Assembly (NCBI RefSeq): GCF_008709555.1
Contig: NZ_VYIJ01000001.1
Location: forward strand, 86,809 to 150,808
DNA: 64,000 nt
DNA from: Thermoplasma sp.
Lineage (GTDB): Archaea; Thermoplasmatota; Thermoplasmata; Thermoplasmatales; Thermoplasmataceae
Direction: 5' to 3'
Positions 4,095 through 59,984 of the stretch are shown here, in pieces (positions within the stretch are counted from its first letter, which is position 1; each line of letters starts with the position of its first letter). The position numbers and the translations under genes are program-made. The notes beneath the pieces are model-generated. The model ran no database searches and was not told where the DNA came from. It saw only the letters and a program-made list of their open reading frames with translations.

Positions 4095-4246
4095 GTGAGC
4101 TGCTCCTCGCTGAAGCTTCGGATCTTCCTGCTTCATCCACCAAACTCGATCCAAATACGACCGGATCACAGTTTCCCTTCATCGGAAACTCTATTTCGAT
4201 CCACGTCTGGAACTAGGTTTAGCGAGGTTGCGTTATCCACAGGCGT
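4095..4246 (-). mobile_element. Degenerate IS200/IS605-type 3' end (TnpB-tail repeat, copy 1)
   Basis: On the reverse strand this stretch begins ACGCCTGTGGAT and ends with CCGAAGCTT, a purine-rich gap and AGCAGCTCAC. The same opening and the same ending occur in the repeats at 19960-20063, 35905-36006 and 59753-59854. The middle is longer and diverged, so this is the most decayed copy. The gap 4051-4492 contains no convincing gene: besides this remnant it holds the AK6 promoter, a strong hairpin at 4353-4383 and the hemL promoter. Confidence 0.45.
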
Positions 4247-4352
4247 TAATTCTGGCTGCACCAGCACTACCTAGGTATCACACCGCTTGGTTATCGTGGA
4301 GGATACACACTTTAAAAATATTTCCATTGGAGGAATAGCGTGTATCTCATCG

Positions 4353-4383
4353 CTGAGGCTGTTGAGACCTACAGCCTTCTCAG
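4353..4383. repeat. Strong imperfect hairpin beside a bidirectional TATA element
   Basis: CTGAG and GGCTGT at 4353-4362 pair with ACAGCC and CTCAG at 4371-4383, with a two-base bulge and an 8-base loop. TTTAAATATATTAT at 4398-4411 lies at promoter distance for a reverse-strand transcript that would begin with the hairpin. It could be the left-end hairpin of the degenerate IS605-type element at 4095-4246, or the 5' end of a small RNA. Confidence 0.4.
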
Positions 4384-4464
4384 AACACCTAACCTTCCTT
4401 TAAATATATTATCGCCAACCGATGTAATGATCCCTAGGGTATGGATACATTGCAATACAAATGA

Positions 4465-19782: not shown

Positions 19783-19814
19783 GGGTATTTTTTCCCTCTT
19801 CCAATTCTTTTTTA
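19781..19814 (+). terminator. Hairpin plus T tract after the TauE gene
   Basis: GAGGG (19781-19785) pairs with CCCTC (19794-19798) across a T-rich loop, followed by TTCTTTTTT. It begins inside the TauE stop codon. Confidence 0.45.
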
Positions 19815-19959
19815 AAGATATTATGTGTTTGAGGGAAGCAGTAAATCCCCATCTTCTGGCATGAGATGCACTGACTTCTCTAATCGATATGATCATTGTT
19901 ATGAACCAAATAAAGAAGATATGTCTTATAATTGTAATGCTCGTTCGTTTCTTGTCCAA

Positions 19960-20063
19960 GCCTGTGGATATCGCTACAACACGATCGTCCATTATATATC
20001 TATACAAGCAGGTGTCCCTTCGCTGAGATGGATCTTCGATACCTTAGCATAGGAATGGCTCAC
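19960..20063 (+). mobile_element. TnpB-tail/IS605 3'-end repeat (copy 2)
   Basis: This stretch starts GCCTGTGGATATCGCTA, contains AGCAGGTGTCCCTTCGCTGAGATGG and ends GGAATGGCTCAC, collinear with the repeats at 35905-36006 and 59753-59854. The frame reads KPVDIATT and runs to a TGA after VSLR. The stem GGATAT (19966-19971) with ATATCT (19996-20001) replaces GGACAT/ATGTCC of the other copies, a compensating change. The 359-base gap 19783-20141 otherwise holds only the terminator at its start and the Lhr promoter (TTTTTATAAG at 20103-20112). Confidence 0.6.
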
Positions 20064-35739: not shown

Positions 35740-35904
35740 ATTTTTATATTATGCCACGGCTGATCTCGTATCTCAAAGATGGTATGATGATCCTGGATAG
35801 ACTAACCACGCTTTTTTTATTGTAGTTTCTCTATTTTCCTTTGCATATCCTCTACGCTTACCAAGTGGTGTGATGCTTGAGTAATATTGGTGCATTCCGA
35901 ACTC

Positions 35905-36006
35905 ACGCCTGTGGACATCGCTATTTTGGCTTGTCTGGATGTCCGGAGAGGCAGATGTCCCTTCGGCGGGAGGAAGCTCCGAAGCTTAACCTGAGATGCA
36001 GCTCAC
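35905..36006 (+). mobile_element. TnpB-tail/IS605 3'-end repeat (copy 3)
   Basis: This 102-base unit shares its first 43 bases exactly with the copy at 59753-59854 and has the same length and the same CTCAC end. In one frame both read TPVDIAILACLDV, then a basic residue and GR, C or S, PF, and then a stop, which looks like the C-terminal tail of TnpB. The upstream part of any TnpB is gone: a stop precedes it by 11 codons. GGACAT (35913-35918) pairs with ATGTCC (35939-35944). The 378-base gap 35740-36117 contains this remnant, T-rich ends of the upstream gene and the HTH-gene promoter. Confidence 0.65.
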
Positions 36007-44053: not shown

Positions 44054-44413
44054 ATGGAAAAAGTCAACAAGGAGAAGGAATACCACCATGAAAGTCATAT
44101 AGTGTACAGTTGTCAGTACCATGTGATATTTTGCCCGAAATATAGGAGAAGTGTGCTTGATCCACCAATTGATGGCAGGTGGAAACAACCCATCATTGAA
44201 GGGTAGGATGATTATGGGTATAAGGTACTTGAAATGGAGGTGATGTCAGACCACGTCCATCTCCTTTTAGATGCTAACACGAAGATGTGTGTGTACTATG
44301 TTGTGAATATAATTAATGAAAAATAGGGGTTTGGTGGAAGCTTTAGGTCTCAACACTTCAAAGAGGAGTAGATCACAATAGCGCGATATTCAGAAATGGA
44401 ATATATGACCTGA
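44054..44413 (+). pseudogene. IS200/IS605 TnpA transposase remnant
   Basis: Reading from ATG 44054 gives KEYHHESHIVYSCQYHVIFC, then PKYRR, then a stop, then in the same frame GYKVLEMEVMSDHVHLLL with the HxH of HUH single-strand transposases. Two further stops interrupt, and the segment with the catalytic tyrosine is missing. About 120 codons of frame survive with three in-frame stops. AGTATATAAATAG at 44017-44029 is still a usable promoter. No tnpB follows. The gap 43861-44430 holds this remnant, T tracts after the FtsZ-like gene and no other gene. Confidence 0.85.
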
Positions 44414-59654: not shown

Positions 59655-59752
59655 TCTCTCCTGCGTTCAAGGCTATAGATCTGATTCGCTCAAATAGGAA
59701 TACAATTGAAGAAATTAAGTTGATAAAAGTAAGGCTGGTGCAGTCCAAATCT

Positions 59753-59854
59753 ACGCCTGTGGACATCGCTATTTTGGCTTGTCTGGATGTCCGGAAAGGC
59801 AGAAGTCCCTTCGCTGAGATGTAGCTTCGATACTCTAGCTGAGGAGGATCTCAC
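59753..59854 (+). mobile_element. TnpB-tail/IS605 3'-end repeat (copy 4)
   Basis: This 102-base unit is identical to the copy at 35905-36006 over its first 43 bases and ends with the same CTCAC. An unbroken frame runs from a GTG at 59651, which overlaps the JAMM stop (GTGA), through this repeat to the TAG after SPFAEM, giving about 57 codons that end in the TnpB-like tail. No other TnpB sequence remains. Confidence 0.65.
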
Positions 59855-59899: not shown

Positions 59900-59984
59900 T
59901 GCGGAGGGAGGGATTTGAACCCTCGAACCCCTTCGGGAATGGACCCTAAATCCATCGCCTTTGACCAGTCTCGACAACCTCCGC
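59900..59984 (-). tRNA. tRNA-Leu (anticodon UAG)
   Basis: The reverse strand reads GCGGAGG at the 5' end and CCTCCGC plus discriminator A at the 3' end (7-base acceptor stem). The anticodon arm ATGGA-TTTAGGG-TCCAT carries TAG, a long variable arm (TCCCGAAGGGG) marks a class II tRNA, and the T arm is GAGGG-TTCAAAT-CCCTC. Leu codon CTA is decoded. No intron is seen and CCA is not encoded. CTTTTATATTTGA at 60021-60034 is the promoter, implying a short 5' leader. Confidence 0.95.

Follow-up and report, generated by a model that had tools for sequence, protein, structure and literature searches.

A sequence of 102 bases, at 35905-36006 of the 64,000-nucleotide stretch of Thermoplasma DNA analysed here (the window), reads like the end of a tnpB gene with no tnpB in front of it, and it recurs. 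Are such repeats loose tnpB tails, guide RNAs retained for their function, or parts of something larger? We conclude that they very probably represent non-autonomous IS200/IS605-group MITEs of the PATE type, derived by internal deletion from a tnpB-only (IS1341-like) element and now orphaned.

Copies within the window

Four repeat units had been recognised in a preliminary description made from the window's letters, and most of its measurements hold. The units at 35905-36006 and 59753-59854 have exact coordinates and are each 102 bases long, share their first 43 bases, both finish in CTCAC and encode TPVDIAILACLDV in one common frame, while the third, at 19960-20063, is 104 bases. Profile E-values for the window units lie far beyond chance (3.7e-37, 1.9e-36 and 1.2e-15), and the fourth unit, running in reverse from 4246 to 4095, matches the family at both of its ends (4.1e-7 and 5.7e-4 in the window search). 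The units are real, but they are not wholes, as the element has a left end as well, found near positions 19807 and 4405 of the window.

The type A mini-element at 19807..20063 (+) has both ends, finishing ...GGCTCAC, and matches positions 5-280 of the 280-position MITE profile (139.4 bits) with a left-end profile match at 19812-19885; the unit 19960-20063 is its right part. The element at 4095..4405 (-) is complete at 311 bases and belongs to a second subtype, type B, whose profile it matches over 4404-4091 at 296.9 bits, a score obtained against a profile built in part from this very copy. It reads left end, inner hairpin X, a type B body resembling a guide RNA, and right end, the unit at 4095-4246 being its right part. 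This copy had been called decayed, which can be ruled out: its body is intact but different, and over its full length the copy aligns with 15 others from three genomes to give the 16 rows of type B. At 35824..36006 (+) lies a type A mini-element whose left end cannot be recognised (MITE profile 100-280, 146.9 bits), with 35905-36006 as its tail, and at 59724..59854 (+) a solo right end or tnpB tail (MITE profile 149-280, 108.3 bits) for which the left-end profile gave no match. A tRNA gene at 59900-59984 (-), the only Rfam match in the window, starts 46 bases past this solo right end at 59854.

The window also holds the one Y1 match of its genome, a broken tnpA remnant at 44102..44323 (+) (PF01797, E 3.3e-19, positions 2-75 of 121) with one internal TAG. 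A probable terminal-only element of 66 bases at 44311..44376 (+), with boundaries set by eye, consists of a left-end-like stretch joined to GAGGAGTAGATCAC and gives a left-end profile match at 44320-44368 (E 2.9e-6). Within 44058-44376, this apparent terminal-only element directly follows the broken Y1 remnant.

Anatomy, partner genes and insertion sites across the genus

The family matches 5 of the 41 genomes examined, and these five are the genus Thermoplasma: the window's own genome (G000; 1.45 Mb in 46 contigs), in which the first unit has 13 DNA matches, and four congeners (G001-G004). A genus-wide listing gave 78 tail copies in the five genomes. Twenty candidates were scored in each genome, so copies in G002 and G003 are under-counted, and fuller match listings gave 58 in G002 and 42 in G003. 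The 78 include at least one element twice (L065) and one overlapping opposite-strand match (L028). Of these copies 54 passed a completeness filter; with the window's 19937-20063, included manually, they make up 55 aligned rows (38 TnpB-less and 17 TnpB-adjacent). A separate alignment holds 37 mini-elements, or 34 once three type B rows are removed, and the type B alignment holds 16 copies, with the truncated L271, G003:C39, G002:C19:54242 and G000:C1:49313 left out. Scanning the named genomes with a 17-base pattern returned 115 loci, mostly chance, of which 12 had tail-profile matches.

The term "TnpB tail" stands because the intact tnpB genes of the sister species G002, 405-413 codons long, run into the tail and its edge: they end ...TPVEIATSGLYGIYPYRQ..., in most followed directly by ...GAGTAGCTCAC, past which the sequence varies from copy to copy. 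Full IS605-type elements of this group thus do carry the tail, so that their absence, named in the preliminary description as grounds for refutation, does not arise. In the window's own genome a decayed tnpB Zn-ribbon (L016) continues into the same tail as the window units. Using a left-end profile made from full-length elements plus two mini-elements, which finds both kinds, we see TnpB sequence upstream of 21 of the 78 listed tail copies, a left end at most 400 bases away in 43 that have no TnpB, and neither in 14; for 7 of these 14 a contig end lies within 156 bases. Left and right ends of the listed TnpB-less copies are mostly 269-282 bases apart, with smaller groups at 218-220 and 244-262. 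In the left-end list, which omits entries 7, 29 and 69 together with every left end scoring no more than 30 bits, the first 20 bases of the left flank contain TTTAW in 31 of 49 cases and NTTAW in 47 of 49, whereas 20-mers drawn at random from the window do so at rates of 3.3% and 11%. Right ends read CTCAC in 56 of 70 cases, and the DNA past them differs between copies. Near-terminal palindromes at both ends are common to the mini-elements and the full-length elements; the former are present in multiple copies per genome, each too small for a transposase gene.

The repeats are therefore internal-deletion mini-elements (MITEs, PATE-type), mostly with their own left end, rather than loose tails, and we count their anatomy, their edges and the parentage of type A as established. 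The idea of retained omega-RNA-like ends was correct in so far as the units do hold a tnpB 3' end and an IS605-type right end; they are, however, the right halves of mini-transposons. As the right end is part of a mini-transposon, transposition alone would lead one to expect its retention, which taken singly does not show that a guide RNA was retained. A whole copy begins with a hairpin-bearing left end, inserted immediately 3' of a TTTAW-like site; then come a spacer, inner hairpin X, the closing portion of tnpB and a right end that in most copies finishes in GAGTAGCTCAC. Such copies would have spread by TnpA supplied in trans. Since the tnpB 3' end is kept, RNA made from a copy would be laid out like an omega-RNA, with 3' flanking DNA as its guide. 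TnpB, for as long as it was in the cell, could have cut the excision site and helped to re-copy the mini-element there, as the published model of TnpB action would predict.

A peptide search of the five Thermoplasma genomes gave 20 type B matches, in three of the five genomes, from elements of about 310-330 bases. None of the 20 has an open frame longer than 82 codons, and so no tnpB parent of type B was found in the five genomes searched. A 45-codon open frame recurs in 14 of the 20 copies; despite this, a type B micro-protein is ruled out, as pN/pS of the body is 0.66 and variable sites spread evenly over the codon positions (16, 21 and 20). Type B might consist of gene-less hyper-parasites that exploit TnpA to jump and an unlinked TnpB to be copied back, built round a structured, nucleotide-conserved omega-RNA-like body that outlived its tnpB parent, a proposal that we find rather doubtful.

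In the window's own genome OrfB_IS605 (PF01385) has no match and the TnpB Zn-ribbon (PF07282) has three fragments, compared with many intact genes in G002, and no intact tnpB or tnpA was found in the 46 contigs of the assembly. Given that number of contigs and several copies at contig ends, an intact tnpB could hide in the gaps. The copies are most likely orphaned remnants, as no intact partner gene was found, and the system in this genome is probably dead and its copies now inactive. In every one of G001-G004 one or more Y1 genes are intact. Near these genes the profiles found no mini-element ends except for a weak left-end match beside a G004 tnpB (L041, E 1.7e-6), which counts against our reading, as does the missing type B parent.

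Gap lengths at the sites of two window copies speak for mini-transposons. The intergenic stretch that holds 19807..20063 measures about 310 bases here as against about 86 in G001, 45 in G004, 126 in G002 and 171 in G003, and at the 35905 site the flanking matches lie 302-310 bases apart here, 152 in G001, 85 in G004, 621 in G002 and 480 in G003. The gap is thus shorter in all four sister genomes at the 19960 site and in two of four at the 35905 site, where G002 and G003 instead carry longer stretches of other DNA. Intergenic sequences have diverged too far for an exact empty site or a target duplication to be read in the congeners, including with queries L070 and L031 against G003 and G002; both points weigh against our reading. 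The L031 site in G002 seems to hold another element with a similar left end. In the flank comparison, no copy of the window's own genome occupies a site common to another Thermoplasma genome; what their flanks matched was element sequence or tnpB, and in the case of copy 59753 the tRNA region next to it.

G002 and G003 do share sites. At one (G002:C24:8432, L075, and G003:C21:12810, L085), identity is 0.791 within the element as against 0.94 and 0.93 in the flanks, a divergence that may stem from gene conversion among the copies or from a second element taking the site, and that would be expected from conversion and not from selection on a host RNA. For G002:C11:10167 (L068), the upstream flank matches one G003 copy and the downstream flank another (G003:C45:31748, L087, and G003:C14:267, L093), which suggests a rearrangement with its breakpoint within a mini-element. 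The flanks of G002:C34:31302 (L020) and G003:C16:16375 (L084) are 99.5-100% identical, compared with about 93-98% for other shared flanks of G002 and G003, which may reflect either recent exchange or mixed bins.

RNA structure and competing explanations

A compensating change, GGACAT/ATGTCC in two copies to GGATAT/ATATCT in a third, had been proposed to mark a covarying stem. The change is literally present, but the stem is not conserved. Over the 38 TnpB-less copies 86.8% of its cells pair, as do 86.7% in shuffles, covariation scores 0.109 where shuffles average 0.116 (with 368 of 500 attaining the observed value), and no pair shows a both-side change, as measured against the commonest pair, which is U-G in this stem. 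Over all 55 copies covariation is 0.079 against 0.084, and the critical pair is G.A, G.G or C.A in 17 of 17 TnpB-adjacent copies. GGACAT/ATGTCC as a conserved RNA stem is ruled out by its shuffle-level covariation and by this mispairing.

A different structure does emerge for the family. Named from one TnpB-adjacent copy, it comprises stem I, hairpin H and two right-end stems, and over the 55 copies it has 41 both-side-change cells compared with 24.6 in shuffles, and covariation of 0.140 compared with 0.121, scores that 0 of 500 shuffles reach and that relatedness among copies may inflate. The number of pairs with both-side changes and the number of further pair types are at shuffle level (220/500 and 309/500). 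Stem I occurs as GGATCG/CGATCC and as GGGCTG/CAGTCC, where pairing is kept as the protein changes from GSVRS to GLVQS. TnpB-adjacent copies have a conserved RNA structure, keeping 96/98 cells of stem I, 160/176 of hairpin H, 82/84 of the first right-end hairpin (RE1) and 66/68 of the second, whereas TnpB-less type A copies keep 150/224, 303/381, 141/187 and 136/152, respectively, and their alignment alone yields a fold of 3 pairs. Single-sequence folds of type A were dropped as support, since the TnpB-adjacent L049 (z -3.9) and L042 (z -2.7) alone stand out among eight, with the other six between -1.3 and 0.3.

Inner hairpin X lies at 4275..4306 (-) in the window, with a partial copy, seen by eye, at about 35845-35876 (+). 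Across the 37 mini-elements 264 of 325 cells pair, with 22 both-side changes where shuffles average 8.1 and none of 500 attains that number. By eye, hairpin X is missing from full-length tnpB elements. The type B consensus structure is preserved yet hardly covaries, with both-side changes in only 2 pairs; the window copy 4095..4405 keeps 28 of its 30 pairs and is one of two, among five single-sequence folds of type B, with z of about -2.3.

Conservation between species bears on whether any of this structure has been selected as RNA. In the G000-G002 comparison, identity is 0.817 over the 112 columns of the type B body and 0.686 over the sequence to its left, an excess reached by 5 of 20000 column shuffles and 4 of 283 circular shifts; for type A the values are 0.748 and 0.667 (199 of 20000; 5 of 241). 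The type A excess between G002 and G003 is weak (0.759 against 0.726; 3076 of 20000). The highest identity in the G000-G002 comparison falls in the right-end part of both types. The better-kept body fits use as RNA during spread, and it could also reflect the needs of transposition or recent ancestry.

Mini-elements might therefore carry working omega-RNA scaffolds selected as RNA, borrowing TnpA and TnpB in trans, with TnpB, programmed by the RNA of the mini-element, acting to retain the element. Speaking for this are the body excess of both types between G000 and G002, a type B body without clear protein-like constraint in its pN/pS and codon positions, and a family structure that covaries past all 500 shuffles. 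Yet the TnpB-less type A copies have partly lost stems that TnpB-adjacent copies keep and fold with 3 pairs, the type B consensus changes on both sides in 2 pairs, the type A excess fades between G002 and G003, the L075/L085 element has diverged further than its flanks, and no intact TnpB was found in the window's own assembly. We regard working scaffolds as a credible account that is somewhat improbable on this balance, and favor orphaned mini-transposons.

Capture by the host, with copies serving as small regulatory RNAs or as leaders of neighbouring genes, would suit the position of the window copies in stretches between longer ORFs and the covariation of hairpin X in mini-elements. It is very improbable given that no own-genome copy was seen at a site common to another Thermoplasma genome in the flank comparison, and that the G002/G003 same-site pair differs more inside than outside. 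The 13-residue frame common to two window copies could also recall a protein-coding repeat unrelated to IS605, or a chance similarity; full tnpB genes finish in the tail, profile E-values reach down to 3.7e-37, and the codon positions of type B vary evenly, so that we count this reading as refuted, with next to no probability left to it. Orphaned non-autonomous MITEs derived from an IS1341-like element remain our preferred explanation.

Comparison with known systems

The omega-RNA portion of IS605 elements thus sits in many mini-transposons that lack genes, all within a single small genus of archaea. Some of its species retain intact tnpB and tnpA and one has seemingly lost both, so the genus offers a test of whether TnpB helps its own element alone or elements in trans as well. 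If TnpB gives no help in trans, this is an ordinary PATE family. We found no description of this Thermoplasma mini-element family in the open-licence literature, and a search of the text of a 2025 report on archaeal circular omega-RNAs found no mention of Thermoplasma, MITE or 'without tnpB' (PMC12558985).

Among the closest known systems are the IS1341-like full elements of the same genus (for example L049 and L042 of G002), which have left end, tail and right edge in common with the mini-elements; the full elements differ in encoding a TnpB of 405-413 codons between the ends. Other OMEGA systems have guide RNA loci apart from the nuclease gene, and the mini-elements would resemble these in providing a scaffold with no nuclease beside it.

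In the model proposed for ISDra2, TnpB cuts the excision site and the element is thereby restored (PMC8612924). Like the reRNA or omega-RNA of ISDra2, the RNA portion here would span the 3' end of tnpB together with the right end, some 150 nt, with a guide from the 3' flank and a target motif on the 5' side (PMC8612924). The mini-elements differ in having no TnpB in cis, in being known from DNA sequence alone, and in a TTTAW-like motif instead of TTGAT.

The PATEs of Haloquadratum walsbyi are IS605-derived palindrome-associated transposable elements, of which HqIRS71 keeps part of a C-terminal coding region (PMC3119063). The Thermoplasma mini-elements are likewise IS605-derived, free of terminal inverted repeats, equipped with near-terminal palindromes, placed 3' of a short target and too short for a gene; some Haloquadratum copies were also made by core deletion, and the window element at 44311..44376 resembles the terminal-only PATEs described there (PMC3119063). 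The Thermoplasma family differs from those PATEs in lineage and sequence, in its covarying inner hairpin, in having two types of body and in conserving the body better than the left half. The type of element is thus already known, PATEs being of the same kind, and the Thermoplasma family appears, from its sequences, to be a new member of it.
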